Assembly (NCBI RefSeq): GCF_900142525.1
Contig: NZ_FRBD01000009.1
Coordinates: 1 to 64,000, forward strand
Length of the DNA: 64,000 nt
Source: Xylanibacter ruminicola
GTDB lineage: Bacteria > Bacteroidota > Bacteroidia > Bacteroidales > Bacteroidaceae
Direction: 5' to 3'
Shown here in pieces: positions 45,026 through 63,000 of the stretch. The position numbers and the translations under genes are program-made. How positions within the stretch are numbered: the stretch's first letter is position 1; each line of letters opens with the position of its first letter. The notes beneath the pieces are model-generated. The model was not told where the DNA came from. It did no database searches and saw nothing but the letters and a program-made list of their open reading frames with translations.

Positions 45026-45655
45026 ATGTCAATAACAAAAGAAAGTCCATATACAGCAGCTATCACAGGAGGAGGATTCCTCTTTTCTGAAACAAATGCA
45101 CTACTGCCTTTGCTTCAGTCTGCAGACAGAGTCGCTCTTCTCAAAGATGAGAAGTTGAACAACCGTCTGCTGAAGATTAATGCAGAAACATCCCGTTACA
45201 GGGCTATCATGGAGATTGCTCGTCGTTTTGATGCAATGCCAGCCTCTTTTTGGGCAGATTATCAGGCAATGAACGAGGAAGATCAGCATGTAGCTCTTTT
45301 CTTCGTCATCTTGAAGACCTATAAGATATGTTTTGATTTCCACATCAACGTAACCATGCGCAAATGGAATAGCATTAGCAAGACATTGGTCAGCGATGAC
45401 ATTGATATGGAATTCAATGAAGTTTCTGCCCGTGATGAGTTTGTTGATTCATGGAGCGATAAGACTAAACGCAAGGTGGCTGGAGCCTATCTTACCATCC
45501 TGCGTAAAGTGGGCATCCTCGACAAGGAGGATAACCTTCATCCTCTCTCTGCAAGTAATTTCGACTACTATATCATCAATGGTGAGCAGTGGTTTCTTGA
45601 AGCCTGTCTTTTGCAGCCATATCAGATTGAAAACATTAAAAAGCAACTCGCATGA
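45026..45655 (+). CDS. brxA: BREX protein BrxA (DUF1819)
   Basis: 209 residues, family length. The start YTAAITGGGFLFSETNALLPLL and the ARRFDAMPASFWADYQAMNEEDQHVALFFVILKTYK block are typical of DUF1819. BrxA is a small DNA-binding helical protein of type 1 BREX, needed for full defence in some systems. It overlaps brxB by ATGA. Confidence 0.92.
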   Translation: MSITKESPYTAAITGGGFLFSETNALLPLLQSADRVALLKDEKLNNRLLKINAETSRYRAIMEIARRFDAMPASFWADYQAMNEEDQHVALFFVILKTYKICFDFHINVTMRKWNSISKTLVSDDIDMEFNEVSARDEFVDSWSDKTKRKVAGAYLTILRKVGILDKEDNLHPLSASNFDYYIINGEQWFLEACLLQPYQIENIKKQLA

Positions 45656-46263
45656 CAATTAAGGAACTCGACGATAAGCTGAACAGCCCAGGTTTCCAAG
45701 ACCCAGAAAACGGCGACCTGTTCTATAACTTCTTCATCTACCAGTATCCGGCAGATAAGGAGTACGACATTCGTCGTCAGATACAGGAATTCAAGGCAAA
45801 CCTTATTCGCCCCATAAACTATGTGGACGTGCTTTGCCTGAATCTCTTTGAGGAATTCTGCAATTTCCTCGACCAGAAGAAATTCCTGAAGCACCCCAGT
45901 ATGTTGAAATACCAGCTGGAGAAAGAACAGGCAGATCCATCTAAGGCTCAGAATACGCAAGATACGCTGACACGTAACGCACATAGCCCAGAGTTTGTAC
46001 AATTCCTACATCAGCGCATTCTTGACCATGTGAATATTGAAGATAAGTATCGTCGCCCATACGTCTTTTTCTATGGCGTTGGCAGCATGTTTCCATATCT
46101 TCGTGTCAACGAGTTGCTGGCTCTCTATGAGGACTACAACGACACGAGCCGCTATAAGATTATCGTGTTTTATCCTGGTCATCGCGAGAACAATTCATTC
46201 CGTTTATTTGGAACTCTCCCCGATAACCATACATATCGTGCAACCCTTCTAATCAATGAATAA
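45652..46263 (+). CDS. brxB: BREX protein BrxB (DUF1788)
   Basis: 203 residues. DDKLNSPGFQDPENGDLFYNFFIYQYP at the start and YVFFYGVGSMFPYLRVNELL, then YKIIVFYPGHRENNSFRLFG near the end are classic DUF1788 signatures. Role: core type 1 BREX component, probably linking BrxC and PglZ. The stop overlaps the start of brxC. Confidence 0.92.
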   Translation: MTIKELDDKLNSPGFQDPENGDLFYNFFIYQYPADKEYDIRRQIQEFKANLIRPINYVDVLCLNLFEEFCNFLDQKKFLKHPSMLKYQLEKEQADPSKAQNTQDTLTRNAHSPEFVQFLHQRILDHVNIEDKYRRPYVFFYGVGSMFPYLRVNELLALYEDYNDTSRYKIIVFYPGHRENNSFRLFGTLPDNHTYRATLLINE

Positions 46264-49200
46264 TATGAAACTGAGTGAGTTATATAAGAAACCGATTGGC
46301 CGTGCTGTAAATCCAGCTGTAAGTGCAACTAAGTTTGATCCAGAGACAGAAAAGATCGAAATAGAAGAGTATGTGTTCACTGATGAAATCATCAATGGAC
46401 TTTATCGAATCCTTGATGCCATCAAGAATAACAAGCCATACGATCACGTAGGCATTTGGATTGATGGTTACTATGGTTCCGGTAAATCTCACTTCCTGAA
46501 GTATCTTGATTACTGTATCACACCACGCACTCAGGAGAAGGCGTTGGAACGTTTATTGGAGGCAATTAAGAGTATTGACCCATTGGACGAGAACCACAAT
46601 ATCAGCTGCGATTACGAAGCTATGCTTAGTATTGCCAATTGGCTGAAGCGTGCCACTATTGATAATTGCATCTTCAATCTCGAAACAAGTTACGACAACT
46701 CAACCGATAAGAAGATGGCATTCCTGCATGTATTCTGGAATGAGTTCAATGGCAAGCGTGGTTTCAACAAGTTTAACCTCACTTTGGCTCAGAACCTCGA
46801 AAAGCCTTTGCAGGAAAAGGGTGTGTTCGAGCAGTTCAAGGAGCGTATCGCTGAAGAAGGTGGCGATTGGAATGATCCAGGAGAGGCTGCCGATATGATT
46901 GACAACGAGTTAGGCATGGTGCTTGACATTGCATGTGACCTCGCCCCTACTCTGGATAAGGAAAGTATTCGCGAACGCATCTTGAAGCGTGACACCAATA
47001 TCAGTATCGACCGTTTTAGCTCAGAATTAGCATCATACCTGAAAGATAAAGGCGATGACTATCGCTTGATTATGCTGGCCGATGAGGTAAGCCAGTTCAT
47101 CAACAAGGAGCGCGACCGTTACTTGAACCTTCAGGAAATCATCACCAAACTCTCTGAGGCCTGCGAGAACAAGGTTTGGATTGCTTGTACCGCTCAGCAG
47201 GATCTTTCTGAGGTTCTTGACGACTGCAATATCGCAGAGGAGAAAGATAAGGAAGGTAAGATTAAAGGTCGTTTCGAGGTAAAGGTTTCGCTTAAAGGCA
47301 CCCAGCCCGAAGTGATTACCCAGAAACGTATTCTTGATAAGAAGAAGGGCGTGATGCCAACGCTCGAAAAGTTTTATGATCAGCAAAAGGCTGCTTTTGG
47401 ACTCCAGTTTAAGTTGCCAAATAGCTATGTTGCCTATGAGTCGAAGGACGATTTCGTTGCATACTATCCTTTTGTGCCATATCAGTTCAAGCTTATCATG
47501 CAGGTGTTCAACTCGTTCCTAAACTTGGGTTACGTGGCCAAGGAGGTAAAGGGTAACGAGCGAAGCATTATTAAGGTTATCCATTCTACCGCCAAGAATA
47601 ATGCCAACGAAGAGGTAGGCAAGTTTGTTTCCTTCGATGAACTGTATAACAACATGTTCGAAGAAGGCTTACAGGCTCGTGGTCAGAAGGCTGTTGATAA
47701 TGCCATCGGTATGGCTCGCAAATATGAGCATGATCCAAAGATGGCTGTCCGAGTGGCCAACGTACTGTTTATGATTTGTAATATCTCACAGACAGACCAG
47801 TTGTTGTTCCCTGCCAATATCGACAATGTGACAACTTTGTTGGTAAATGACTGTGAGACACCTCGATTGGCAATCAAGAACGAGGTTGAGAAGATTCTCG
47901 ATTATTTCTGCGAGAACAACATAATCCGTCGCGAACCAGGCAAGAATGGTACTCTCGAAACTTATTCTTTCTACAGCGAAGAGGAAATGAAGGTAGCTCA
48001 GCTCATTCAGAGCCAGAGTGTTGATAATAATACCCAGGCAGAGATGCTGCGTGAGATATTCTTCAAGTATCTCACCTCACTTCGCAATAAGGAGCAGTAT
48101 CTTACTCGCACCTTTGCTGTGGGAGCTTCTATCAAACAACGCCAGTTCCTGTCAAACTCACCTGATGTCGTAGTTGAGTTTGCAATGGATATCGACTACG
48201 AAAGTGCAGAAGTGTTGGCACAGAATACGCCAAACACAAAACTTGTGTATTATGTTGGCCCACAGTTCCGCGAGAATAAGAAACTCTACAATGCCTTCTA
48301 TTGGTATTGCCAGGTTAACCGTTATATGTCAACACCTGCCACCAGCGATGAAAATGCCAACACTCGTAAGGAGTTTGAGAAGCGTGCCAAAGAACAGTTC
48401 GACTCAATCATAGCCCCAGAGTTCCACAAGATACTCGACACCTGTCCTGTTATCAGTGGTATGCGTGTGGTTGATGATGTGGAGCTTGGCAACAAGCGAG
48501 GTAACGAACGTTTCCAGAATGCCATTCAGAAGCATCTCGCGAGTATCTACACCAAAGGCAACTTGGTTGATCGTTCTGATATGCCTCGTAACACAGAGGC
48601 ACTGAAGAAGGCTATTCTACGCCCTATACAGCCAGGTGATTACGACGGTATGAATGCCGAACTGACAGATGCAGAACACGAGGTAGAAATCTATCTGAAC
48701 AAGCAGTTTGCCGAAGTAAATGTGGCCGATGTGACCAGTAAGTTTAGCAAGGCGCCTTATGGATGGGATGCTATCTGCACGCTTTACGTTGTTAATGAGT
48801 TGGTACGTCGCCATGCCCGCGACTATTCATATGCCAACAACCCTAATGTTGACACCAATCTCGTGGCCAGCCGTCTGATTCAGGAAACTAACAAGTTTAC
48901 ACTACGTCAGGCAAAGGCTGTTTCACAGGAACTCATTAACCAATTCACTGCTGCATGGAAAAACATCTTTGGTGTGAAAGAGGCCTTCTCTACAAATGAC
49001 AGCACTCAGTTGTTCCGTCAGGCTCGCGAAAAGGAAAGTCCAAACAGTCTCTATAATAAACGTGAGGGCTATCGTAAGATTGAGTCAGAGATAGGAAGTT
49101 ATGCTTTCTCTACTCCTATCCATAAGGCTATCGACTTGTTTGATACATGGATAGCAGAGCGCAATCCCGAAACATTGTTCCAAGCAGTTATTGATAAGCA

Positions 49201-49885
49201 GCAGGAGGCATGCGAACTGATTGACAAGTGTAAGGAGGTGGCCCAGTTCTGTCACGATCAATTGCCCACATACCAACGTTTACTCCAGTTCGCACAGGAC
49301 AATCAGTACAACTTTCCGTTTGTCCCAACTGACCTTCAGGAGCATGTCACCACTATGCTTGGGATCGAGAAGGACACCTGGCCAATAGCAAATATGCGTA
49401 ATTACATCAAGAGTGAACGTGAACTGAAGTATGCACTTGATGAGGTGCGTGAGGCACTACGAGAGAAAATCCGTGTGAACTACAACGATATTTATGAGTA
49501 CTTAGAGAAGGTTGCTACAAAACAGAATGTTCCATTGACGGTTTTAGCAAACCGCGAAAACGTAATTCTGTCAAAGACTACTCCTGACAATATTCTTGTA
49601 CTGAAGAATAACGTTAGTACCGATGCATTCTATCAGGAGCAGATTGGCAAGATTCTTGATTACGCAAACGCGCATAAGCCAACAGAACCACAACCCACAG
49701 ATTCTGGTACTCCAACAGATCAAGAACCACCAAAGCCGACAAAGAAGATACGTCAGGCTTCACTTCAGACCAAGACCAGCATTCCCCTTTCAACAGAGGA
49801 AGATATTGATCGCTATCTAAATGGATTGAGAGAGCAGCTCTTAAAGTTGTTGGTAGATAACGATGGAGTAATGATTGTAAAGTAG
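46256..49885 (+). CDS. brxC: BREX ATPase BrxC
   Basis: 1209 residues, family length. Walker A GYYGSGKSHFLKY lies at 71-83, and RLIMLADEVSQFINKERD (about 257-274) holds the Walker B Asp-Glu. The remaining 900 residues are largely helical, ending in a Pro/Thr-rich linker (about 1140-1160) and a short tail. BrxC is the large AAA-type ATPase of BREX, required for both methylation and defence. The ATG at 46265 (MKLSELYKK) is an alternative start and fits better with the overlap of brxB. GC here is about 47% in a sampled line. Confidence 0.94.
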   Translation: MNNMKLSELYKKPIGRAVNPAVSATKFDPETEKIEIEEYVFTDEIINGLYRILDAIKNNKPYDHVGIWIDGYYGSGKSHFLKYLDYCITPRTQEKALERLLEAIKSIDPLDENHNISCDYEAMLSIANWLKRATIDNCIFNLETSYDNSTDKKMAFLHVFWNEFNGKRGFNKFNLTLAQNLEKPLQEKGVFEQFKERIAEEGGDWNDPGEAADMIDNELGMVLDIACDLAPTLDKESIRERILKRDTNISIDRFSSELASYLKDKGDDYRLIMLADEVSQFINKERDRYLNLQEIITKLSEACENKVWIACTAQQDLSEVLDDCNIAEEKDKEGKIKGRFEVKVSLKGTQPEVITQKRILDKKKGVMPTLEKFYDQQKAAFGLQFKLPNSYVAYESKDDFVAYYPFVPYQFKLIMQVFNSFLNLGYVAKEVKGNERSIIKVIHSTAKNNANEEVGKFVSFDELYNNMFEEGLQARGQKAVDNAIGMARKYEHDPKMAVRVANVLFMICNISQTDQLLFPANIDNVTTLLVNDCETPRLAIKNEVEKILDYFCENNIIRREPGKNGTLETYSFYSEEEMKVAQLIQSQSVDNNTQAEMLREIFFKYLTSLRNKEQYLTRTFAVGASIKQRQFLSNSPDVVVEFAMDIDYESAEVLAQNTPNTKLVYYVGPQFRENKKLYNAFYWYCQVNRYMSTPATSDENANTRKEFEKRAKEQFDSIIAPEFHKILDTCPVISGMRVVDDVELGNKRGNERFQNAIQKHLASIYTKGNLVDRSDMPRNTEALKKAILRPIQPGDYDGMNAELTDAEHEVEIYLNKQFAEVNVADVTSKFSKAPYGWDAICTLYVVNELVRRHARDYSYANNPNVDTNLVASRLIQETNKFTLRQAKAVSQELINQFTAAWKNIFGVKEAFSTNDSTQLFRQAREKESPNSLYNKREGYRKIESEIGSYAFSTPIHKAIDLFDTWIAERNPETLFQAVIDKQQEACELIDKCKEVAQFCHDQLPTYQRLLQFAQDNQYNFPFVPTDLQEHVTTMLGIEKDTWPIANMRNYIKSERELKYALDEVREALREKIRVNYNDIYEYLEKVATKQNVPLTVLANRENVILSKTTPDNILVLKNNVSTDAFYQEQIGKILDYANAHKPTEPQPTDSGTPTDQEPPKPTKKIRQASLQTKTSIPLSTEEDIDRYLNGLREQLLKLLVDNDGVMIVK

Positions 49886-49905: not shown

Positions 49906-52900
49906 ATGGATACAAATAGAATAAAGAAATTTGCCACAGAAGCGAGAAACAAATTAAAGGCCGGTATTGCCGCTAAGATAATTACGTTAGGATTCGATAA
50001 GAATGGTAACGTGCCAGAGCACATGCACCCACAATTGATGCAGGGAGGATCGCTGTGGAATGGTCAACTTCAAACAGAGGGCTTCTACTACCAGTGGATG
50101 GCTCTGTACGACCGAGTACAGAAAAAAGGTATCAAGGAAGTGTATGAAGAAGCTGCTTATACCTGGTTCAACCGCCTTGTAGCTATTCGTATCCTGATGA
50201 AGAATCAGCTTATTGAGCCTGTTTTGGCTTACGTTGATGCTGCCCGCACACCAAGGATCGTTGATGAAGCCCGCATGGGACGCGTTCCTCAAATGCAAGA
50301 GCGCCAACGCCAATTACTGATGGAACTTTTGGATGATGACTCAAAGATTACAGAGCAGTTTGCCATCCTTGTAACGGCTTTCTGTCATGATAATCCAATC
50401 CTCTTCAAGTGTTTTGGTGCCATGTCCGATTATACGGAATTACTGTTGCCCAACGATATTCTGACAGAGGGAGGGTTTATTGACCTACTGAATCACACGG
50501 AGTTCATCACAGACGATGATTTCCATTCACCAGAATTGATTGGCTGGCTTTACCAGTTCTATATCTCTGAGCGTAAAGATGAAGTGTTTGCTAAAAAGGG
50601 AAAGTTCGAAGCCGACGAGATTCCTGCTGCCACACAGATATTCACGCCCAACTGGATTGTGAAGTACATGGTGCAGAACACCATTGGGCGTATCTATCTT
50701 GATAACAATCCAAGCGCAGCCTCTGAGTTCAAACCAAAATGGCAGTATCTCGTGGAGCCATCTACACCAACTCCCAAGGAAGCCATCTATAAGTACAAGG
50801 AATTAACAGACCTCCTCGTTGGTGACTTAGCTTGTGGCTCAGGCCATATTCTCAATGAGTGCTTCGACCTGCTTTACGACCTCTATATTTATGAAGGTTA
50901 TAGCCGTAGGGAGGCTGTGGAATACATCTTCACTTACAACCTTCGAGGAATCGATCTCGATACTCGCGCCAAACAGTTGGCAACCTTTGCCTTGATGCTG
51001 AAGGCTTGTCAGAAGGATAGCGCCTTTGCTGATGCCCACATTCTGCCAAAGGTTCTGAATATGCCTACACCTATTCCACAAGAGCAGGTATCAGATAGGC
51101 TGATAGAATTCTTCCGCGAGACACCATCAAGTCAGATTCACAAAGACCTAACAGCTGCTTTTGAACTGATGCAGGATGCAGATTCACTTGGTTCTATTAT
51201 GAAGTTCGAGTTAGCTGAGTCAACACAGTTGGCAATCCGTCAGATAATGGTTTATTGGCAAAAACAAGGTTTTATACCAGAACCGGTAAAGGCCATTATG
51301 CCTGCAATGGATTTAATACTTACGTTGACAGAGAAATATGCTGCTCTCGTAATGAATCCGCCATATATGGGTAATAGTAACATGAACGAGGTATTATCTA
51401 ACTATGTAAAGAAGAACTACGAGAAGGGAAAAGCAGATTTATGTACTGCATTTATGATAATGCAAGCAGAAAAGACGTCAGGAGGAGGTTATTATGCAAA
51501 TATTATTCCTCCCTCATGGATGTTTCTATCCACATTTGAAGGATTACGACGTTCAATTATTGATAATCAGACGATACAGTCGCTCCTACATCTAAGTCGT
51601 GGCATATTTGGTGCAGATTTTGGAAGTGTTTCCACCGTTATTCATAATCGAAAGACTAACAACCCTCATGGTACTTATTTTCGATTAATTGAACGAACAT
51701 TTCAGGAGTTTGATCAAAAACATTTGAGAATGCTTTTTGAAAAGACCCTTGAAAACCATGATTTTCGTTATTTCTTCGCTGATTATTCAAAAGATGTTGA
51801 TGATATTCATTATAATAAAAATGGTGCGAGAATATTTTATCCAAACATAAGTCAGAATAATTTCGAGGGAATCCCAGGATGTCCTATTGGGTATTGGATT
51901 AGTGATAGAATGAGAGCGGCTTTTGACAACTCTCAAATTAAAGATATTGCAGACTCTCGCCAAGGTATGGCAACAACAAATAATGACCGTTTTTTGAAGT
52001 TATGGTTTGAAGTCGATATTTCTAAAATCGGTTTCGGTATGTCTTCAGAAGATGATACTTGTGGAATATATAAATGGTTTCCATATAATAAGGGAGGAGC
52101 ATATAGAAAATGGTATGGCAATAATGACTATGTGGTTAATTTTTACAATCGAGGCAAAGAAGTATGTGATTATATTGATTCTCACTCTAAAGTTAATCAC
52201 AAAGGAAGAGTTATCAATAGAGACAAATATTTTCAACCTAATATTACGTGGTCTGCATTAAGTAGTGATGCTATTTCATTACGTTATACTCCAAAAGGAT
52301 CCATTTTTGACACAAAAGGACAGTGTATATTTACTGACACAAATGGACTGAAAGAAAAACTTATGGCATATCTTAATTCACGTGTATCGAAAGAGTTGTT
52401 GAAAGTTATTGCGCCTACATTGGACTATAATTGCGGTGTAATTGCTCAGATGCCATACAAAGATCATGAAGTGGACATGAACGAAATACAATCTTGCATT
52501 GATATTAGCAAGCAGGATTGGGACTCACATGAAACTTCTTGGGACTTTGATTCAAATCCAATTGTGGCCCTTCGAAATGCGAAGGTTGCAGAGGGCAATC
52601 TGGAATCTTCATTTAAGATTTCAACTTTCATGGAGCAGTTCAAGTCCTCTTGGAAGGGATTGTTCAATAAACTCCGTGACGATGAGACTGATTTGAACCG
52701 TCAGTTCTTAAATATTTATGGTCTCGAAGATGAGCTATCACCAGAGGTAAAGCTATCAGAAATAACTATTTTGCAACAAGGCGAGATCAACATCGATAAT
52801 GAACAGGTGACGTGGAACGAGGATGTGCTGATGAAGCAACTTATCTCATACGCAGTTGGTGTATGGATGGGTCGCTATAAGCTTGGCACAAAGGGCTTGC

Positions 52901-53520
52901 ACATTGCCTATCCAAATCCAACAGACAAAGAACTGCAGGAATATTGGTATGGTGGTGTTCAGGTGTATATCGACGATGACGGCCTAATCCCCGTGCTGCC
53001 ACAAAGTTCACCTTTCGATGATAACCTGTCAAGCCGTATTTCCGATTTCGTCCGCATCACCTTCGGCGAGGATAAGCTGACGGAGAACCTGAACTACATC
53101 GAACAGAAGTTAGGAACCTCGATAGACCAGTATGTGCAGAAGGACTTCTGGAAGGATCATAAGAAGATGTACCAGAACCGCCCTATCTACTGGCTGTTCT
53201 CATCGAGCAAGGGTGCCTTCAAATGCCTGGCCTACATGCACCGCATGAATGCCTACACCGCAGAGCGTGTCCGCTCCAACTACCTGCTCCCCTACATCGA
53301 GTTCCTTCAGAATCAGATAGGAGAAATGGAGAACCGTCGTGCAGCCCTCTCCACCACAGAGAACCGCAAGCTCCAGAACTTCCAGAAAGCTCTCGATGAG
53401 TGCCGCGAGTATCACGAACGCCTCCAAGTAGTGGCAGAACAAGCCATCGCTTTCGACCTCGACGATGGCGTTGTAGTCAACTACGCCAAGTTTGGTGATG
53501 TATTAGCTAAGATAAAGTAA
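49906..53520 (+). CDS. pglX: BREX adenine-specific methyltransferase PglX
   Basis: 1204 residues, normal length. SAM-binding motif I GDLACGSGHILNECF near 306-320 and the catalytic motif IV NPPYMGNS near 484-491 identify an N6-adenine methyltransferase. The N-terminal part contains TPNWIVKYMVQNTIGR. Residues about 490-860 form the variable target-recognition region. PglX methylates the BREX site on host DNA. The recognition region (about 51350-52480) is clearly poorer in GC than the C-terminal part: 18 of 60 bases in the line at 52141 against 29 of 60 at 53281. This points to exchange of the specificity segment. Followed after 25 bases by the ATPase gene. Confidence 0.95.
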   Translation: MDTNRIKKFATEARNKLKAGIAAKIITLGFDKNGNVPEHMHPQLMQGGSLWNGQLQTEGFYYQWMALYDRVQKKGIKEVYEEAAYTWFNRLVAIRILMKNQLIEPVLAYVDAARTPRIVDEARMGRVPQMQERQRQLLMELLDDDSKITEQFAILVTAFCHDNPILFKCFGAMSDYTELLLPNDILTEGGFIDLLNHTEFITDDDFHSPELIGWLYQFYISERKDEVFAKKGKFEADEIPAATQIFTPNWIVKYMVQNTIGRIYLDNNPSAASEFKPKWQYLVEPSTPTPKEAIYKYKELTDLLVGDLACGSGHILNECFDLLYDLYIYEGYSRREAVEYIFTYNLRGIDLDTRAKQLATFALMLKACQKDSAFADAHILPKVLNMPTPIPQEQVSDRLIEFFRETPSSQIHKDLTAAFELMQDADSLGSIMKFELAESTQLAIRQIMVYWQKQGFIPEPVKAIMPAMDLILTLTEKYAALVMNPPYMGNSNMNEVLSNYVKKNYEKGKADLCTAFMIMQAEKTSGGGYYANIIPPSWMFLSTFEGLRRSIIDNQTIQSLLHLSRGIFGADFGSVSTVIHNRKTNNPHGTYFRLIERTFQEFDQKHLRMLFEKTLENHDFRYFFADYSKDVDDIHYNKNGARIFYPNISQNNFEGIPGCPIGYWISDRMRAAFDNSQIKDIADSRQGMATTNNDRFLKLWFEVDISKIGFGMSSEDDTCGIYKWFPYNKGGAYRKWYGNNDYVVNFYNRGKEVCDYIDSHSKVNHKGRVINRDKYFQPNITWSALSSDAISLRYTPKGSIFDTKGQCIFTDTNGLKEKLMAYLNSRVSKELLKVIAPTLDYNCGVIAQMPYKDHEVDMNEIQSCIDISKQDWDSHETSWDFDSNPIVALRNAKVAEGNLESSFKISTFMEQFKSSWKGLFNKLRDDETDLNRQFLNIYGLEDELSPEVKLSEITILQQGEINIDNEQVTWNEDVLMKQLISYAVGVWMGRYKLGTKGLHIAYPNPTDKELQEYWYGGVQVYIDDDGLIPVLPQSSPFDDNLSSRISDFVRITFGEDKLTENLNYIEQKLGTSIDQYVQKDFWKDHKKMYQNRPIYWLFSSSKGAFKCLAYMHRMNAYTAERVRSNYLLPYIEFLQNQIGEMENRRAALSTTENRKLQNFQKALDECREYHERLQVVAEQAIAFDLDDGVVVNYAKFGDVLAKIK

Positions 53521-53545
53521 GAAAAAGAATAAAAAACGAAATATT

Positions 53546-54487
53546 ATGGTTACAATTAAGAAAATTGAGATTAAGGACTACTTCGGAAAAGGAAATTTCG
53601 AATGGAATCTTGACCCAGTTGTAAACATCCTGGGAGGTAAGAATGGTAGTGGCAAATCATCACTCTTTAAGTTGTGCTATACCTTGTTAACAACTGAGAG
53701 AATAAACGAAGAAATGGATAAACATTTCTCAACTCTCTTTGAAAAAGTTGTTATAACATTATCTAACGATTGGACTGTAACATGGACGCGTGCTAAAGAG
53801 AATGAGCATTATTCTGTAGATATTGGCGGAAAAAAGCCTTTGGTTTTCAGAGAGTCTGTAGAGATATATGATAATAAAAGGGATAAACGTGTGTTCTCAG
53901 AATTATCATCACAGTTCAACGTTTTTATGATTAACTCTTTTGAGCAGCATACGGCAACTGCAGCGCAATATGAACGTCAACCCAAGTCATTGCCACTGGA
54001 TGATCCTACAATGCTTGATTTAATGATAAAAGATCAAATAGACCTGCGAAACAAGGATTTTTCCAAAGTGATGGAAGATTTTGTTGATTCTCCTGAAGAA
54101 GATGAACAGAAGCGAGCAGAGTATGTAAAATCATACAAGAAGATATATTCCATATTAGCTCATTTCCTTCAAGAATATGATGAACCTTTCAAAAGTTCTT
54201 TCGAGTTTACTAAGGATGGTAGTGCAATAGGCTTTGAGCGTCTGTCGATGGGTGAAAAGCAGATATTGCTCCTCTTGCTGATGGTGAGCAATACGAATCA
54301 GAAACCTTGCATTTTCTTCATGGACGAGCCCGATCTAAGTATGCACATTGATTGGAAGGAAATTCTGGTTAAGGAATTACATGACCTTAACCCTTATATG
54401 CAGATAATTCTTTCAACCCATGCCCCCAGCGTTATTACAGGTTGGCACGACAAAGTAAAGGAAGTTAGTCATCTTATAAAGAAGTAA
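53546..54487 (+). CDS. AAA family ATPase (ABC/SMC-type), AriA-like
   Basis: 313 residues. Starts IKKIEIKDYFGKGNFEWNL, then Walker A GGKNGSGKS (31-39); signature-like RLSMGEKQ near 230-237; Walker B CIFFMDEPDLS near 254-264; and the H-loop in ILSTHAPS. This is the SMC/OLD/RecF type of ATPase. It is followed after 9 bases by a DUF4435 gene. In the anti-phage system PARIS an ABC-type ATPase (AriA) sits before a DUF4435 TOPRIM nuclease (AriB) and holds it inactive until a phage anti-restriction protein is sensed. AriA proteins I recall are longer than 313 residues, so this may be a shorter relative. Confidence 0.8.
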   Translation: MVTIKKIEIKDYFGKGNFEWNLDPVVNILGGKNGSGKSSLFKLCYTLLTTERINEEMDKHFSTLFEKVVITLSNDWTVTWTRAKENEHYSVDIGGKKPLVFRESVEIYDNKRDKRVFSELSSQFNVFMINSFEQHTATAAQYERQPKSLPLDDPTMLDLMIKDQIDLRNKDFSKVMEDFVDSPEEDEQKRAEYVKSYKKIYSILAHFLQEYDEPFKSSFEFTKDGSAIGFERLSMGEKQILLLLLMVSNTNQKPCIFFMDEPDLSMHIDWKEILVKELHDLNPYMQIILSTHAPSVITGWHDKVKEVSHLIKK

Positions 54488-54496
54488 GGAGGGATT

Positions 54497-55483
54497 ATGG
54501 CAACACTTGAAAGTGGATTTAATCCTATCTATTCTGAAAATGCCTCAATATTGACAGGAAACCCTAACAGGGTGACTGTTGAGGTGGAAGATACGATTGA
54601 CAAGGATTTCTGGAGCGACCTGCTTGGGGAGTTATGTCCTGAAAAGGAATTCCATTTTGACCCTTATCATACAATCCTCAATGAAGATGGCACTTGTGAA
54701 CGGACAGGAAAAGGTAAATCACAAATCATCAATGCATCGGCAGGCTTTAACGACTGGCATATCGGCTGTGTTGATAGCGATTACGATTGGATTCTTTCTA
54801 ACTATACAGAAGCAGGCAAGACTATAAGTGGCAATAAGTACCTGCTTCAGACTTATGCTTATTCTATTGAGAATCTGATGTGCCTATCAAGCACATTATC
54901 TGATTTCTGTCGCGAAAATACGGAAGAAGATGTGGATTTTGATTTCGTAGATTATCTAACCAGGCTCTCAAAAGCCATTTATCCTTTATTGGTATGGTCA
55001 ACGTATTTATACAGTAAAGGTATTTTGGATTTCACACCTAATGATTGGCGTGAGGTATTGATAAATACCGAGAAAGATCCCGAGGTCTCCCTGGCTAAGA
55101 TTGTGACAAAAGCAAAAGCTAAGGTAGAAGAGTTTGATAAGAAATACGCTGGTGAAATAACAGAAAAAACGGATTTTGAGTTAGAGAATATCATCAAGAG
55201 AGACGTCACTGATGACGAAACTTATCTCTATGTACGTGGGCATGAACTATTTGATCATATTCTATATTCTGTCCTAAATTCCGTTATTAAAAAGTTGCGC
55301 AATCAACACTATGCGGTTCTCAGAACATCTGGTACAGATGAAGAATTCCGCAAAACAGCATTGCGTGAATACCAGAACAAAGATACAAATGTAGGGAAAG
55401 AACTTTCTAAAAACTATAGATACAAGAACAATACCCTGATATATAAAAAGATTTGGGCAGATGTAATGCAGATTTGGATGTAA
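54497..55483 (+). CDS. DUF4435 (TOPRIM-like) protein, AriB-like
   Basis: 328 residues. The DUF4435 pattern is visible: RVTVEVEDTIDKDFW (about 23-37), with Glu in the TOPRIM acidic position, IGCVDSDYDWIL (about 90-101) with the D-x-D pair, and LLQTYAYSIENLMCL (about 114-128). TOPRIM folds with Glu and D-x-D bind metal and cut nucleic acid, and AriB of PARIS is of this family, cutting tRNA when released by AriA. Partner of the ATPase encoded just upstream. It has no signal peptide. AT-rich like the neighbouring SIR2 gene. Confidence 0.78.
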   Translation: MATLESGFNPIYSENASILTGNPNRVTVEVEDTIDKDFWSDLLGELCPEKEFHFDPYHTILNEDGTCERTGKGKSQIINASAGFNDWHIGCVDSDYDWILSNYTEAGKTISGNKYLLQTYAYSIENLMCLSSTLSDFCRENTEEDVDFDFVDYLTRLSKAIYPLLVWSTYLYSKGILDFTPNDWREVLINTEKDPEVSLAKIVTKAKAKVEEFDKKYAGEITEKTDFELENIIKRDVTDDETYLYVRGHELFDHILYSVLNSVIKKLRNQHYAVLRTSGTDEEFRKTALREYQNKDTNVGKELSKNYRYKNNTLIYKKIWADVMQIWM

Positions 55484-55493
55484 TAATATAGCT

Positions 55494-58328
55494 ATGGATA
55501 AGTTGCAGTTTTCAAATATACTTCATATACAGGAAGCAAGTAAACAGGGACGCTTAGTAGTCTTTGTTGGTGCCGGCGTTTCGAATAATTCTGGTGTGCC
55601 CACATGGTCTGAGTTGATTCGCGAAATGAAGAATGACTGTGGGATAGATCAAGAAACGGATGATTTAAAAATTGCTCAACTCTATAAAGATGCAAGAGGG
55701 GAAAAGGAGTATATGGATAAAGTCAAGGAAGTACTAAAATATAACAGAGTAATTCCTAACGATATTCATAAGGCCATACTCGACTTAAATCCATGCCATA
55801 TTATAACTACGAACTATGACAATTTGCTGGAGCAGGAAATTGAGAACGAATTTAAGCAATTTGACATCATTAGAGAGGACAAGGATATGCCAAATATGGC
55901 TTATCCTAACTCGCTGATAAAAATGCATGGTGACTACGATACAAACAATATCGTACTTACCGAATCTGATTACTATAACTACGGAAAGAGTTTTCCGTTA
56001 ATCCGCTCATTTGTATTATCACTATTCGCAAGTAAACTTGTTGTTTTTATTGGCTTTTCTTTTGCTGATCTGAATCTCAAAATGATACTAAACGATCTTC
56101 GTTCTGTTCTGCATGATCGTATGCAGAGAATTTATCTTGTTTCAGATACGAAGCCTTCACAAATCATGAATAGCTACTATGAGAATAAAGGTATCAATGT
56201 TGTATATCTTGAAGAAGAAGATTTAGATGAGTTTAATTCCGAAACGAGTGAATATACATTGGAGATGCCCAAAGGTATTTACCTCTATAGGGTACTTAGA
56301 TGTATCAGCAATGTTAGGAAAGACTACAGACAAGATTTGGCGAGTAGGTTATATAGTCAAATAAAAGAATACAAAGATGAGTTGCCGGTTATTGGTGATG
56401 GATTGAGATATTTCATTCCCCCCCAAGAAATGGTTATGTATAATCCTTATTCTGATGGACTTCAGCTTTGCTCCCCTTATTTCAAATCGTTACATAAACA
56501 ACTAAAGTCGTTTGAAGGGAGAAGAAGATTCATACTTGATCATCCTAACATAAACAGGAAAGAGTTAAAGCAATTGGCTTATAACAACTACCTATATAGT
56601 ATTGATGATGTGTGCATTGTAGATCCTAACAAACAATATGAGTTGAATGTATCGCTTGGAGATTTTTCTTCTCTATGGTACTTGTATGATTTTGATTATA
56701 ACAATCTTCACAAGCGTTTGTTATATCTTAGTTCGAGGGAATTGTCATGTGACTCTAAAGATTTGGAATATCCTTTTATCCTATATAAATTAGGAAATTA
56801 TTATGAAGCATATCATATATATAATATGATACTTCCTATCGCATGGAAGAGAGGAAAGTATATAATATATTTTATTTGCTTATATAATTTATGGTCTATT
56901 AGAAACGGAGTGTATGCTACACTTCTTTTAGAAGATAAGAAATTAGCTTGTAGGTTATACGATAAGTTATCAGGAATTAATTTAGATGAGGTCTTAGGGC
57001 GACTTCCGATTTCAGAAGAAATCAGGAAGACATTCCAAGACTTGTTGTCATACCGTTATTTAGGGAATAGCGCGGTAGAAACAGAAGACAAGAAAGAACT
57101 CATTTATCAACAGAGGAAGTCTGGAGAAAAGGGGGGATCATCTATCAATAGTAATATTGTATCACTTCTTTCAAGATTTGAGCGCAATTTCCAATTTTGC
57201 AATAATAACTATATTATATGCGATAACAATGGATTCTTTAAGTCTATTGGCTATAATACCGTATGCGGAATACTAAATAGTTATGCAACTCCTGACACAA
57301 AATTTGAGGGATTAGACGTTAATACAACAAAAATAGACAAGCTTTTTTCTTTTTGTATATTTACCCTTGTATTTTGTATCGATTCCAAAAAGTTAATAGA
57401 AATATTTCGTCGATACGAAATTGACCATATAGAATTAACAGAAGATGCCATTGATACTGTAAATGAGTATTGGAAAAATCTCATTGATGCTAAACATATT
57501 CCTTTTACAGAAACAAGTATCTTTGGCTCTTATATTGAGAATCTGATATATGTTACCGCTAAAATTAGCAATGATGGAATTAATTCCGATAATGTCTACA
57601 ACTCAATTCTTAAATTCTGGGATTATATTGTTAGTTTTAAGATAAATGGGAATTTACTTGCGTTTCTCCTTTCAAGTCAGAAACCAACCAAAGAAGTGTT
57701 ATACTCTATTTTGGATAAATTGACTTCGAATCTTGATAAATACGATCATTTTGCTGATTGTTATGAATGGATTGCACGTTATATGAAGGAAATGGATATA
57801 ACTTATGACTTGGATATGGCGAGGTTAAAGGAGGATAAATATGCGAATGAATTGTATCATTTATATCCTGTACTAAATCCTTCATTGAAAGGTTTATTTT
57901 CTTCTTATTGTCAGAATAGACTATGTGAAATTAGGAAATATCTGAAATTCATAGTAGGCAATAATCTTGAAGTGGATTCTGTAATTGTCTTTAAGGAAAA
58001 ACTAAAGAAATTAGATAATAATCCACAATACTATAAATTGGATTGTTATTGGATGCTGAGTAAAATGCGTCATAACAAACAATACCAGTGCGTGTATGAA
58101 TCAATTGACGAGATTGCGAAAAAGAACAAATGTATGAAATTCTTTCTCGCGCCAACCGAGTATAATAAAAAAGCAGAGGTTGACATAGAGTGGATATTAA
58201 CGACTGGAGGTGAAGGTGTTCCTGAACTTGCAAAGATTCCAGAATATAAAGAGAAATTAAAACAGTATTTAATTGAACAAAAATATCTAAACGAAAGAAT
58301 AAGAAATAATATCGTAAGAGTTTTGTAA
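55494..58328 (+). CDS. SIR2-domain protein with long C-terminal region, probable defence NADase
   Basis: 944 residues. The N-terminal SIR2-type Rossmann fold: VVFVGAGVSNNSGVPTW (22-38), TTNYDNLLE (about 103-111) and the catalytic His in KMHGDYD (about 142-148), then KLVVFIGFSFADLNLK (about 180-195). All expected NAD-binding and catalytic positions are present. The other 650 residues are mainly helical, without a known motif, and may sense a phage signal. SIR2 proteins in defence systems often deplete NAD+ to stop infection. The coding is strongly AT-rich (16 of 60 bases G/C in the line at 56821). It begins 10 bases after the DUF4435 gene stop and ends 40 before pglZ. Confidence 0.82.
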   Translation: MDKLQFSNILHIQEASKQGRLVVFVGAGVSNNSGVPTWSELIREMKNDCGIDQETDDLKIAQLYKDARGEKEYMDKVKEVLKYNRVIPNDIHKAILDLNPCHIITTNYDNLLEQEIENEFKQFDIIREDKDMPNMAYPNSLIKMHGDYDTNNIVLTESDYYNYGKSFPLIRSFVLSLFASKLVVFIGFSFADLNLKMILNDLRSVLHDRMQRIYLVSDTKPSQIMNSYYENKGINVVYLEEEDLDEFNSETSEYTLEMPKGIYLYRVLRCISNVRKDYRQDLASRLYSQIKEYKDELPVIGDGLRYFIPPQEMVMYNPYSDGLQLCSPYFKSLHKQLKSFEGRRRFILDHPNINRKELKQLAYNNYLYSIDDVCIVDPNKQYELNVSLGDFSSLWYLYDFDYNNLHKRLLYLSSRELSCDSKDLEYPFILYKLGNYYEAYHIYNMILPIAWKRGKYIIYFICLYNLWSIRNGVYATLLLEDKKLACRLYDKLSGINLDEVLGRLPISEEIRKTFQDLLSYRYLGNSAVETEDKKELIYQQRKSGEKGGSSINSNIVSLLSRFERNFQFCNNNYIICDNNGFFKSIGYNTVCGILNSYATPDTKFEGLDVNTTKIDKLFSFCIFTLVFCIDSKKLIEIFRRYEIDHIELTEDAIDTVNEYWKNLIDAKHIPFTETSIFGSYIENLIYVTAKISNDGINSDNVYNSILKFWDYIVSFKINGNLLAFLLSSQKPTKEVLYSILDKLTSNLDKYDHFADCYEWIARYMKEMDITYDLDMARLKEDKYANELYHLYPVLNPSLKGLFSSYCQNRLCEIRKYLKFIVGNNLEVDSVIVFKEKLKKLDNNPQYYKLDCYWMLSKMRHNKQYQCVYESIDEIAKKNKCMKFFLAPTEYNKKAEVDIEWILTTGGEGVPELAKIPEYKEKLKQYLIEQKYLNERIRNNIVRVL

Positions 58329-58368
58329 AAGTTATAATATAAACTGACTCCGCATAAGATATTACATT

Positions 58369-60915
58369 ATGGTACAAGAAAGAATATACAACTATTTTGA
58401 ACGTAACCCACAACTGCACGTTCTGTTCATCTTCGACAAGATGAATATCAACTTTACAGAGTTGGAACTGGTAGAGTGGCCCGAGAATTATATATACAAG
58501 GTTTTTGATGGTGCTTGGTTTAATATCAAGTACGCAATAGAAAATACTTGGAAGGATAAAAATGTTGTGCTGCTCTTTACGGACAAGACCTGTCCAAAGA
58601 CAGAAGAACAGATGTTGGTGTTCCCACTGCTGGATATGCTAAAAGCTAATATGGAGTTCAAGGAGGACGACTATGAGAGCTTTATGCAGCAATATAACCT
58701 ACCAGAGAAATTCCGTCTATTTATCAAGAATAATATTAGCGAGATACAATCTACCAAGATTAGTTCAATGTTAGCTGGACATCTGGCTCCTGAGACATTC
58801 AGCGAAGATCTGGTGTGTAGAGCGTTCATCTCTTCGTACTTGGGCGAGAAGAAATTGCTGGATTGGGAACCGATCATTGTACACATGCTGGTACTCGGCT
58901 TGCAGTCGGAGGAGAAGAAACGTAATGACTTCTTCCATCGATTATCTAAGAATCTTGATGCAAAGAAAGCCGTAGATGCGAAACTCAATAGTCTGTTTGA
59001 CAGAACCTATAGTCCTAATTCTGACCAAAAGATGAAGGAGGTGGCTGAGTGCTTAAAATACAATAGTATCAGTCAACTGCTTGATGCAGCACAGGGTGAT
59101 AATTATAAGCAATATAAGATAAAGAACCAGATGATGCTTGAAGGCCAGAATAAGGTGTATGAATATGGACTTCAGAATCGTCAGTGGTCGGAGAAATTTA
59201 GCCAAGCAATGGCAGAACTCGCAAAGGACATTAAGGAAGAGGAAATAATAAGTGTATATGGTATTGATGCACAATATAACTATATGCCCGAAGCTCTGTG
59301 TTGGCCAATCCTCAAAGAGATTCTTGAAAAGAAACTTATGACGGAGCCAGAAGACGTGAATGACAGAATGCGTAACATGGCATTGAAATTCTCGCCACAG
59401 GCTGATATTCAAGTGGTGATTAAGTTCATTGAACAGGTTGCCTTGTACTACGAAAAGGTTAAGAATGTGGGAACTATGAAACTTAACACCCCTGAAGAAT
59501 ATGTGCAAAAATATATAGACCGGGACAATGGCCTCTATTTGGCAGATATGATTTATCGTCATTGTTTGGAGGCATATCACGACTTGATAACAAAAGAGAA
59601 TCCTATATGCCAGACCATCAACAATGTTAAGAACCAGTTGGATCAAGAATATGCAAAACTGGCCAATGTACTTAATCTGGAATGGTTGACATGCGTGAAA
59701 GAACGCGATGACATATTTGATAGCTTAAGTATCTGCAAACAGGAGGACTTCTATAATAACGAAAGTGAACCAAGTGCTAAGCAAGTAATAATCATTTCGG
59801 ATGCGTTGCGTTATGAGGTAGCAGCAGAATTGATGCAAGAATTGTCGAAGGAGAAGCATATTGCAAAGCTTTACCCTTACAAGGCTATGCTACCAACAGA
59901 AACCAAGTACTGCAAAACAGCATTATTGCCACATCGCACATTAGAACTGCAGGGAACAGAGTTGGTAATTGACGGTCAGGTTCTTGTTACTACCGAACAA
60001 CGAACAGCCCATTTGGCTAAATACAAAGAGGGAGCCGTATGCGTAAAATATGAGGATGTAATGAATGGTGACCAGACGAGTAACCGTGAACTATTTAAGC
60101 GTCCACTTGTCTATATTTTCCACGATGTTATAGATGAGAATAGTCACCCTCAGAATCCGTTCGAGATCATCCGTTCTTGCAGGACGGCGATTAATCAATT
60201 GGCGGTATTGGTTAAGAGACTTCACGCCACATGGAATGTAGCCAACGTGATTGTAACTGCTGACCACGGCTTTATCTATAATGATATTCATTTTGAAGAG
60301 AAAGATAAACATAGTATCAACGACCCAAATATTGAAAAGAAAACTCGATACTATCTTACAGACAGCACTGTTGAGGTGGAGGGAATAGCTAAATTCCCCT
60401 TAGAAAATGTTTCTGGCATTTCTGCAGCAAAACAGACCTTTGTAGCTGTTCCTTATGGAACAAATAGACTGGCGGCACCAGGTGGATATAATTTTGCCCA
60501 TGGAGGTGCAACGCTTCAGGAAATGATTATTCCTGTAATCAAGAGCAGTCAGCGCAGAACCGATAAGACGGAAAAGGTCGGTGTTTCATTGATGAATCAC
60601 AACCTAAATATGGTAAGTAGCCGTTTGAAGTTCCATTTAATCCAGTCGGAAGCTGTATCGATGACTATTATGGAACGTAGAATAGTTTGCCAGATTTTCA
60701 ATGGTGATGACCCTGTAACGATTGAAAAAGAATTGTTACTGAATAGTACTGATTCTGCAAATCTGAATAATCGAGTATTCGAGGTGACACTAAACTTGAA
60801 CAAATCTGTTACATCGAGTGTACTCCAGTTGCGTGTCTATGATGTGGAGGATAGGCTCAATCCTCTGATCAAAGAAACTGTGAAGAATAATACAATGATA
60901 GAACAAGATTTCTAA
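58369..60915 (+). CDS. pglZ: BREX phosphatase-like protein PglZ
   Basis: 848 residues. The alkaline-phosphatase-superfamily core is seen as VIIISDALRYEVAAEL near 472 and VIVTADHGFIYND near 627, with the metal-binding Asp and His. The N-terminal half is helical and the end is a beta-rich domain (VEVTLNLNKS). PglZ is a core protein of all BREX types and, with BrxB, BrxC and PglX, forms the defence and methylation complex. Its usual place, straight after pglX, is here separated by three cargo genes. Confidence 0.94.
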   Translation: MVQERIYNYFERNPQLHVLFIFDKMNINFTELELVEWPENYIYKVFDGAWFNIKYAIENTWKDKNVVLLFTDKTCPKTEEQMLVFPLLDMLKANMEFKEDDYESFMQQYNLPEKFRLFIKNNISEIQSTKISSMLAGHLAPETFSEDLVCRAFISSYLGEKKLLDWEPIIVHMLVLGLQSEEKKRNDFFHRLSKNLDAKKAVDAKLNSLFDRTYSPNSDQKMKEVAECLKYNSISQLLDAAQGDNYKQYKIKNQMMLEGQNKVYEYGLQNRQWSEKFSQAMAELAKDIKEEEIISVYGIDAQYNYMPEALCWPILKEILEKKLMTEPEDVNDRMRNMALKFSPQADIQVVIKFIEQVALYYEKVKNVGTMKLNTPEEYVQKYIDRDNGLYLADMIYRHCLEAYHDLITKENPICQTINNVKNQLDQEYAKLANVLNLEWLTCVKERDDIFDSLSICKQEDFYNNESEPSAKQVIIISDALRYEVAAELMQELSKEKHIAKLYPYKAMLPTETKYCKTALLPHRTLELQGTELVIDGQVLVTTEQRTAHLAKYKEGAVCVKYEDVMNGDQTSNRELFKRPLVYIFHDVIDENSHPQNPFEIIRSCRTAINQLAVLVKRLHATWNVANVIVTADHGFIYNDIHFEEKDKHSINDPNIEKKTRYYLTDSTVEVEGIAKFPLENVSGISAAKQTFVAVPYGTNRLAAPGGYNFAHGGATLQEMIIPVIKSSQRRTDKTEKVGVSLMNHNLNMVSSRLKFHLIQSEAVSMTIMERRIVCQIFNGDDPVTIEKELLLNSTDSANLNNRVFEVTLNLNKSVTSSVLQLRVYDVEDRLNPLIKETVKNNTMIEQDF

Positions 60916-60927
60916 AAAACTATAGAT

Positions 60928-63000
60928 ATGACACTACAGCAGAAGATAATGAGTGCCTTTATAGGCAAAGTGGTAAGAAAAGACCTTGCTTTCCAAGTAA
61001 AAGGTGGTCTTCCTGTTCCGACATATGTATTGGAGTACCTTTTAGGTCAGTACTGCGCTACCGATGACGAAGAAGCCATCGAACAGGGACTGGAGAAGGT
61101 TAAACAGGTAATTCAAAATAACTATGTTCATCGTGCTGAAGCAGAATCTGTAAAAGGAAAGATTCGCGAGGCAGGTCGTTATCGCGTCATTGATAAGATA
61201 TCTGTGACATTAAACGAAAAAGCAGACCAGTATGAAGCTGAGTTTGCTAATCTCGGATTGACTCATGTGCCAATTGGCACTCAATATGTCAAAGCTAACC
61301 CAAAGTTACTTTCAGGTAATGGCGTGTGGTGTATTGTCACCATCGGTTATATACAGGGAGAAGATATTAAAATGCGCTGGGACATCCAGACATTGAAACC
61401 TATCCAGATTTCCAATATTGACGTACAAGACTACATCGCCCAACGTCAGCAATTCACTACGGAAGAATGGATTGATTTCATGATGCATACCGTTGGTCTG
61501 AACCCTGAATTAATGAACAGAAGAGAGAAGTTCATCACATTGGCTCGTCTGCTGCCACATGTAGAAAACAACTTCAACTTTGTTGAACTTGGTCCCAAGG
61601 GAACTGGTAAGAGCCATGTTTTCCAGGAGCTATCACCTTATGGTGTATTGGTTAGTGGTGGTGATGTGACATCTGCTCGATTATTTGTAAAGATGTCAGG
61701 TAATAAGGAACTTCTCGGTCTGGTTGGTTATTGGGATGTAGTAGCATGGGATGAGTTTGAACAACAGAAAGGCCGTGCTGTAGAGCCGACCCTGATTGAC
61801 ATCATGCAGAACTACCTTGCCAACAAATCGTTTAACCGTGGTAAGGCTACTCACGAAGCGTCTGCTTCTATGTCGTTTGTGGGAAATACGAAACATACAG
61901 TCCCATACATGCTGAAGAACAGTCATCTTTTTGAGAGTATCCCAACCCCATTTGTTAAGGGTGCATTCCTTGATCGAATCCATCTGTATAACCCAGGATG
62001 GGAAATAAAGATGCTGAAGAAAGATAGTTTTTCTAAGGGATATGGCTTAATCACAGACTACATCGCTGCAGTTCTTCATGCCATGCGAAATACTGATTTG
62101 ACGGGAATGCTGAAGGATTATGCTAAATTTGACGGTTCACTATCAGAGCGCGATCATTTGGCAATTCGAAAGACATTCTCAGGAATGGTAAAGTTAATCT
62201 ATCCTGATCAGAAGATTACAGACGAGGAAGCTTTTGAATTAATTGAGTTCGCTGCAGAATGCCGTAAACGTGTGAAAGACCAGCTTTATGTCATCGACGA
62301 AACATTTACAGCAGAACCTGCCAAATTTGAGTATATCAATGTTAAGACAGGAGAAAAGCACAAGGTGTTGACACTGGAACAAATAGAAAACGAATTCGTT
62401 CCTGCTCATGAGCAGACTCTTCCTGATGATGAGACTTCTGAGTTGCCAGACACTACAGTAGGGAAAACCGCTGAGCCAGCATCTTCTAAGGAGGAGATTA
62501 AGGCTCCAGAAGAACAGGTCAAACAGAAAAAACTGGCTTCAAAATTCGTTGAGATCAGGGCCAATCAGTCAAATGTTTCATACAAGAAACTATTTGGGGA
62601 CTATCTTGAAACTGCATCGCACATTGTTATAACCGATCCTTACATCCGTGCACCTTTCCAGATAGAAAACCTTGTGGAGTTTATACAGACTGTACGTGAA
62701 TGTAGCAATAATAGTGAAGAACTTACTATTGAACTTCACACTCAGAATGATGAAGAGAAGGTTCCTGAAATGATTGATACCTTCGATGAGTTGAAGGATG
62801 AATTAGCTGCTGTGGGAATCGACTTTAGTTATTTCTTCGATGCAGATCATGACAGGAATATTGTTCTTGATAATGGTTGGAAGATAACTCTCTCACGTGG
62901 TCTGGACATCTTTGAGAAGTTCGGAAGATTCTCTTTAGGCAGCGTTCGTCAAACTAATCGTCGTTGTCGTGCATTCTCAGCAACATTTGTGCAAGAATAG
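60928..63000 (+). CDS. brxL: BREX protein BrxL (AAA+/Lon-like)
   Basis: 690 residues, family length. Walker A GPKGTGKSHVF near 220-230, followed by ELSPYGVLVSGGDVTSARLF, a BrxL hallmark; Walker B YWDVVAWDEFEQQ near 268; and a sensor region ASASMSFVGNTKH. The long hydrophilic insert EPASSKEEIKAPEEQVKQKK near 515-540 separates a C-terminal domain. BrxL is a ring-forming DNA-binding ATPase of type 1 BREX, needed for defence but not for methylation. I do not see a clear Lon Ser-Lys dyad. Confidence 0.94.
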   Translation: MTLQQKIMSAFIGKVVRKDLAFQVKGGLPVPTYVLEYLLGQYCATDDEEAIEQGLEKVKQVIQNNYVHRAEAESVKGKIREAGRYRVIDKISVTLNEKADQYEAEFANLGLTHVPIGTQYVKANPKLLSGNGVWCIVTIGYIQGEDIKMRWDIQTLKPIQISNIDVQDYIAQRQQFTTEEWIDFMMHTVGLNPELMNRREKFITLARLLPHVENNFNFVELGPKGTGKSHVFQELSPYGVLVSGGDVTSARLFVKMSGNKELLGLVGYWDVVAWDEFEQQKGRAVEPTLIDIMQNYLANKSFNRGKATHEASASMSFVGNTKHTVPYMLKNSHLFESIPTPFVKGAFLDRIHLYNPGWEIKMLKKDSFSKGYGLITDYIAAVLHAMRNTDLTGMLKDYAKFDGSLSERDHLAIRKTFSGMVKLIYPDQKITDEEAFELIEFAAECRKRVKDQLYVIDETFTAEPAKFEYINVKTGEKHKVLTLEQIENEFVPAHEQTLPDDETSELPDTTVGKTAEPASSKEEIKAPEEQVKQKKLASKFVEIRANQSNVSYKKLFGDYLETASHIVITDPYIRAPFQIENLVEFIQTVRECSNNSEELTIELHTQNDEEKVPEMIDTFDELKDELAAVGIDFSYFFDADHDRNIVLDNGWKITLSRGLDIFEKFGRFSLGSVRQTNRRCRAFSATFVQE

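Follow-up and report, generated by a model that had tools for sequence, protein, structure and literature searches.

The question raised by this locus is what a pair of PARIS-like genes does inside a BREX operon. The window, a stretch of 64,000 nucleotides from Xylanibacter ruminicola, carries a gene for an ABC-type ATPase followed by a gene for a DUF4435 protein, and the first-pass annotation had read the nested pair as a fail-safe that fires when a phage disables BREX, perhaps forming a distinct branch that senses BREX itself. We examined the operon, the pair and a third gene beside it by profile searches, structure models and comparison with related genomes.

The BREX operon and its pglX-pglZ slot

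All six core genes of a type I BREX system (brxA, brxB, brxC, pglX, pglZ and brxL) are present by Pfam and PADLOC on the + strand, forming a single, intact operon (Table 1). In brxC the Pfam helical domain scores above its cut-off and the wHTH domain under it. The C-terminal domain of BrxL is phospholipase-D-like (MIT_C), and the protein probably corresponds to the HKD variant that PMC12839542 describes among type I BREX systems. The left flank of the operon holds FtsH, RsfS and CTP-transferase genes, then DUF1294, Fic and CrcB genes, the Fic-domain gene lying about 1.6 kb ahead of brxA. The pglX gene of the window is a single ORF, unlike that of three related BREX operons (L153, L155 and L067), where it is split into two ORFs at an identical site, after EITILQQGE at about residue 964; a DUF1016/YhcG nuclease gene lies between the halves in L153, and small ORFs lie there in L155.

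Table 1. Coordinates of the window's features and of related loci, with the profile matches that identify them
Feature	Position	Strand	Evidence
Fic-domain gene	42359-43393	-	
brxA	45026..45655	+	Pfam BrxA 93.8 bits
brxB	45652..46263	+	Pfam BrxB 84.7 bits
brxC	46256..49885	+	PADLOC BrxC E 3e-148
pglX, adenine methyltransferase	49906..53520	+	PADLOC PglX 1093 bits
AriA-like ABC/OLD ATPase, short form, 313 aa	53546..54487	+	Pfam AAA_15/AAA_21, PADLOC AriA
AriB-like DUF4435 protein, 328 aa	54497..55483	+	Pfam DUF4435 88.5 bits
DSR2-like SIR2 protein, putative NADase, 944 aa	55494..58328	+	Pfam SIR2_2 87.8 bits
pglZ	58369..60915	+	Pfam PglZ 129.4 bits
brxL	60928..63000	+	Pfam BrxL_ATPase 398.8 bits, MIT_C 137.5 bits
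Split pglX, related operon L153	L153:2943-7764		
Split pglX, related operon L155	L155:4786-9981		
Split pglX, related operon L067	L067:4733-10181		
Second short-AriA/DUF4435 pair, own genome	C26:169270-170010 (L073:7799-9685)		
Type I RM operon of G365	L170:1733-17883		

The ATPase and DUF4435 ORFs lie exactly where the first-pass annotation had drawn them, 9 bases apart. It had also placed the pair between pglX and pglZ, and the pair does sit after pglX, but a third gene that had been overlooked, encoding a SIR2 protein, separates it from pglZ, so that the pair does not touch pglZ. The cargo and its neighbours lie on the same strand with gaps of 9-40 bases, the internal gaps of the AriA-AriB-SIR2 trio being 9-10 bases, and the cargo would be co-transcribed with BREX. 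A scan of positions 53000-58800 gave 29 promoter-like sites vs 22.6 in shuffles (sd 5.5) and 5 terminator-like sites vs 2.9 (sd 1.8); neither count was used as evidence.

The closest BREX operon in 399 genomes of the same family (G562 = L063, pglZ 76% identical) has a pglX-pglZ gap of 6 bases. The G+C content of the window's AriA/AriB pair is 0.37/0.38 and that of the SIR2 gene 0.326, with 0.40-0.44 for the six BREX genes. Because the slot of the related operon is empty and the base composition is deviant, we regard the pair as inserted cargo. In the same GTDB family sample 105 genomes gave a PglZ match, and we then read the slot at the 12 strongest, weaker matches lying outside this census and one genome (G453) being unread on a contig of 3.7 kb. 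In the 11 readable operons, window included, the slot is empty (without an ORF of 70 aa) in 4 and holds cargo of varied kinds in 7. In a Bacteroides mediterraneensis operon (L064 = L154) the slot holds SIR2 alone, the AriA/AriB pair being placed between brxC and pglX; in L153 it holds PtuA/PtuB and then SIR2, and in L155 SIR2 with a Schlafen-like gene. Since relatives hold only SIR2 in this slot, or the pair in another one, separate acquisition of AriA/AriB and SIR2 is supported.

The AriA/AriB pair

The published rule for PARIS is an AAA_15 or AAA_21 ATPase neighbouring a DUF4435 protein, with thresholds of 32/27/27 bits (PMC9122126). The window pair falls within this definition, the ATPase scoring 62.7 bits for AAA_15 (cut-off 32.1) and 56.6 bits for AAA_21 (cut-off 27), and its neighbour 9 bases away scoring 88.5 bits for DUF4435 (cut-off 27). 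The best-fitting PADLOC models are AriA (PDLC04164, E 5e-37) and AriB (PDLC04165, E 7e-33), so that Pfam, PADLOC and the published definition all agree with the initial assignment of a PARIS-like pair nested within BREX. The L064 pair matches these two models far more strongly (9e-105/5e-120), which marks the window pair as a divergent member of PARIS.

The sequence motifs point the same way. The AriA-like protein has the Walker A (GGKNGSGKSS), signature (LSMGEKQ), Walker B (FFMDEP) and H-loop (STHAPS) motifs of an ABC ATPase, and G31, N33, G34, G36, K37, S234, G236, E237, D260, E261 and H292 are invariant in a 19-row alignment. Against E. coli AriA (PDB 8ux9) it gives E 2.7e-17 as a single sequence and 3e-36 as a profile. 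The TOPRIM-like acidic residues noticed at first reading in the DUF4435 protein, E31, D93 and D95, are invariant in 19 aligned proteins, the window's included, and were equated with those of E. coli by position and motif rather than by alignment. E31 may be the counterpart of E. coli E26, which is a guess from the sequence; an E26A mutant of E. coli AriB gives no tRNA cleavage (PMC12409363). Searched against the PDB, a profile of AriB recovered no AriB chain, and the relationship to the E. coli protein therefore depends on the DUF4435 and PADLOC models. The structure model of AriB, built from an alignment of 4, has a mean pLDDT of 44.1 and was neither used as evidence nor taken to a fold search; its residues 25-105 alternate strand and helix in a manner compatible with TOPRIM, at low confidence.

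The pair thus resembles PARIS of E. coli in its scores above the published cut-offs and its retained acidic residues and differs from it in the size of the ATPase, which is indeed shorter than classic AriA, with 313 aa vs 464 aa in E. coli. Residues ~138-252 of E. coli AriA are left unmatched between two stretches that align to the short-form profile. The suggestion that this short form is a distinct branch sensing BREX did not survive comparison. From 84 AriB ORFs we obtained 63 other distinct pairs (the remainder being duplicates or having no AriA found upstream), whose AriA ORFs are 239-468 aa long with a median of 279, their starts being possibly over-extended; one of these pairs, that of L064, was seen within BREX. 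No BREX genes were found by BLAST with the window's proteins near the 25 non-BREX pairs that have 12-20 kb of context. Most other pairs come with about 1.5 kb of flank, and among L001-L032 the window's own pair alone has BREX genes at its side. An AriB tree of 64 rows places the two BREX rows, window and L064, in different supported groups, requiring 2 changes. The Salmonella pair lies outside this tree, for which the tool gave a long-branch warning, and because long branches meet in it we take the non-grouping as moderate evidence. Together, the lengths of the 63 pairs, the 25 non-BREX contexts and the tree led us to reject a BREX-specific short AriA, and the AriA/AriB pair shows no specificity for BREX or restriction.

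The nearest relative of the pair (G290: AriA 40%, AriB 35-39%) is free-standing, which also counts against a branch that senses BREX. We considered it as support for a link to restriction and set it aside, as it sits in a polysaccharide cluster, adjoining a UDP-sugar dehydrogenase, a glycosyltransferase and a polysaccharide synthesis gene. A second short-AriA/DUF4435 pair lies elsewhere in the same genome and is about 28% identical to the BREX-embedded pair. It is one of a set of DUF4435 homologues found in 379 of 399 same-family genomes (201 of the 208 of good quality); outside the family, 28 of 387 genomes in the order sample have one. At all 23 non-BREX family loci read with wide context an AriA-like gene adjoins it. 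These loci are often near housekeeping genes, with MeaB, EamA, MS channel, TrkH and DXP synthase as recurring contexts (one representative of each was typed), and the six AriB copies from the window's genus cluster together in the tree. This second pair has the look of a near-core element passed on vertically, not of an accessory defence system.

The presence of ATPase and DUF4435 genes in the pglX-pglZ slot is not new. In Salmonella LT2 the BREX operon has two genes that E. coli HS lacks at this position, for an ATPase and a DUF4435 protein; neither is required for methylation (PMC9009780), and this two-gene insert has been named PARIS (PMC11341690). The window resembles the BREX of Salmonella Typhimurium LT2/D23580 (StySA; PARIS) in carrying such a pair, a likeness drawn from the published description and not from protein sequences; it differs in the DSR2-like SIR2 gene after the pair and in its host, which belongs to the family of Bacteroides mediterraneensis. 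PARIS homologues occur in 2.21% of about 2,000 pglX-pglZ intervals with a known system (PMC11341690), and PARIS occurs in 20% of assembled genomes from the human gut, chiefly Bacteroidales (PMC10924106).

The DSR2-like SIR2 protein and its genomic linkage

The third cargo gene encodes a SIR2 protein with the motifs GAGVS (26-30), TTN (105-107) and HGD (145-147). A profile of seven sequences aligns end to end with DSR2, positions 4-942 against 24-996 (E 1e-52), and DSR2 also gives the best fold matches in Foldseek to a model built from the same number of sequences (mean pLDDT 78.1, pTM 0.61). The fold match runs the whole length over 1,064 columns (E 2.7e-24, TM 0.49) and is tight only in the N-terminal pieces, where about 280 columns superpose at rmsd 3.6-3.9, the full-length rmsd being 15.8. 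The protein thus has the full-length architecture of DSR2, a SIR2 domain followed by a long helical C-terminal solenoid, at about 18% identity in the structural alignment. N107 and H145 are the counterparts of the DSR2 catalytic residues N133/H171 (PMC11087589) and are invariant in the seven sequences. Conservation is highest in the SIR2 domain, fair in a central region at about 500-600 and variable in the C-terminal third; there are invariant residues among 540-554, nearly all in the segment 522-553, which is modelled at pLDDT <50.

Unlike DSR2, the clade of the window's protein resides in restriction operons wherever a full-length member has readable context. These members, window included, number 7, of which 4 lie in BREX operons and 3 in type I RM operons. 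The BREX members are always between pglX and pglZ (the window, B. mediterraneensis L154 = L064, uncultured Bacteroidales L153 and Marseilla massiliensis L155). Two type I RM members directly follow hsdR (a Bacteroides assembled genome, L156 = L133, and F082, L157), and the third, in G365 (L170) of the order sample, lies between hsdM and hsdR with other genes. Besides the window, the genome samples yielded full-length members in G738, G624 and G567 (family sample) and G365 (order sample), and a search of genome contigs yielded six full-length loci, three of which are the same as family-sample members. Left out of the count are L152 (= L132 = G738), whose upstream genes are unreadable at a contig edge, and L148, which consists of contig-edge fragments. 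Leaving L157 aside, the taxa are Bacteroidales or of the same order, by records or kinship labels. In two partial relatives, L171 and L172, we recognised no restriction operon, and counting both brings the linkage to 7 of 9.

For comparison, we opened 17 of 22 other SIR2-domain loci, taking six genes before and five after each. A BREX or RM gene was nearby in 3 of the 17 by a local BLAST panel that can miss unlike restriction genes, the clade members having additionally been read with Pfam and PADLOC. Fisher's test gives p 3.5e-4 for 7/7 vs 3/17 and 0.0085 with 7/9; as the members are few and related, these values serve only as a guide.

Several further features were observed around these loci. 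In L157 a Fic gene follows the SIR2 gene, and in L172 a DrmD-like gene lies downstream on the opposite strand. In the type I RM operon of G365 nine same-strand ORFs separate hsdM from hsdR. Among them are the SIR2 gene, a RhuM gene and two genes for AAA_21/SMC-like ATPases, with a small ORF after each ATPase; the one small ORF searched gave no Pfam match. Carriage of the window's SIR2 gene on plasmids or phages was considered and rejected, since no matching record among 445 from plasmids and 4 from phages reaches 80% coverage of the gene and a scan of viral contigs gave none.

A SIR2 or DSR2 gene in a BREX operon was not found in the literature searched, a literature whose supplements, preprints and most subscription papers were beyond reach. 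The words 'sir2' and 'sirtuin' and words starting 'nad' are absent from the accessible main text of PMC12839542, 'dsr' and 'sir2' are absent from the accessible sections of PMC11341690, and the accessible sections of the DSR2 paper PMC11087589 name BREX only in a reference. The restriction-linked DSR2 clade is the new part of the finding.

Back-up effectors, passengers or guards

Our preferred reading, to which we give a probability of roughly 0.6, is that the BREX slot has received two back-up abortive modules in separate acquisitions, each with its own trigger. Its observed basis is the anatomy of the operon with its six BREX genes, the conserved catalytic and ATPase residues, the empty slots of relatives, the G+C content and the linkage of SIR2. 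In such a scheme AriA, as an ABC ATPase, would hold AriB, the predicted TOPRIM nuclease, in an inactive state and, on sensing an anti-restriction protein of a phage or a similar one, would release it to cut tRNA and arrest growth. The DSR2-like protein, as a putative NADase, would destroy NAD+ once a trigger engages the long, helical arm at its C-terminus. Both modules may thus act as back-up suicide effectors, with triggers that would relate to phage inhibition of restriction. The fail-safe role proposed at the outset for the nested pair is plausible and has been in print before (PMC11341690, PMC12839542); PARIS and related OLD-ABC pairs are listed among the BREX back-up effectors of PMC12839542, which the window resembles in having accessory effector modules among BREX core genes, although the accessible survey section lists nucleases and the window has a SIR2 protein. 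Two published results count against parts of this reading. The Salmonella pair is not activated by Ocr or Gp5 and is inactive against every phage tested, and its deletion leaves BREX protection undiminished, with a ten-fold gain for phage TB34 (PMC11341690), which speaks against a back-up role. The known trigger of DSR2 is, in published accounts, a phage tail tube protein and not an anti-restriction protein, which speaks against a trigger of the latter kind.

The strongest competitor, which we hold to be a serious if somewhat less probable reading, is that the pglX-pglZ interval is a tolerated insertion hot spot whose modules respond to phage triggers of their own and are functionally independent of BREX. 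The varied cargo in the readable BREX operons of the family sample is what such a hot spot would contain, E. coli PARIS functions without any type I RM or BREX (PMC9122126), DSR2 senses the tail tube protein, and the nearest relative of the AriA/AriB pair stands free. However, free-standing SIR2 members would be expected under hitch-hiking, and every readable full-length member lies in BREX or type I RM.

That linkage allows a further, tentative suggestion, by analogy with PrrC, a tRNA nuclease that acts with, and guards, a type I RM enzyme. The DSR2-like NADase clade could serve restriction systems that methylate adenine (BREX and type I RM) as their dedicated fail-safe, depleting the cell's NAD+ once a phage has disabled the restriction enzyme. 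Given how the SIR2 clade is linked, a guard role deserves testing. It would be a stronger and, in our judgement, unlikely claim, again by analogy, that the pair and/or SIR2 directly guards BREX, silenced by BrxC, PglX or PglZ and freed on breakage of the complex. The SIR2 clade is linked to two systems that both have an adenine methyltransferase, and its central segment, judging from the model and the invariant residues there, could form a contact loop; for AriA/AriB, however, the short form is not specific to BREX, and the E. coli pair needs neither RM nor BREX (PMC9122126). A single system with AriA as sensor and AriB and SIR2 as its two effectors is very improbable and was rejected, since, despite the tight spacing within the trio and another ABC ATPase and nuclease pair (PtuA/PtuB) directly upstream of SIR2 in L153, the modules move separately (L064, L153, L155), SIR2 occupies the slot without the pair in L064 and L155, no SIR2 of this kind lies beside the 25 non-BREX pairs with 12-20 kb of context, and the pair and SIR2 differ in G+C content in the window (0.37-0.38 vs 0.326) as in L064 (0.43 vs 0.28).

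Under the reading of two separately acquired back-up modules, the two parts of the cargo carry different weight. The nested PARIS pair adds little, because it has already been published, with its fail-safe role still at the stage of a proposal. The DSR2-like gene is weightier, since it would extend the back-up effectors of BREX from nucleases to the destruction of NAD+, and the linkage of its clade to both BREX and type I RM offers a direct test of suicide effectors as guards of restriction enzymes. A published survey counted about 7,000 occupied pglX-pglZ intervals and assigned no known system to about 5,000 of them (PMC11341690), and the genes between pglX and pglZ are a place to search for such effectors.
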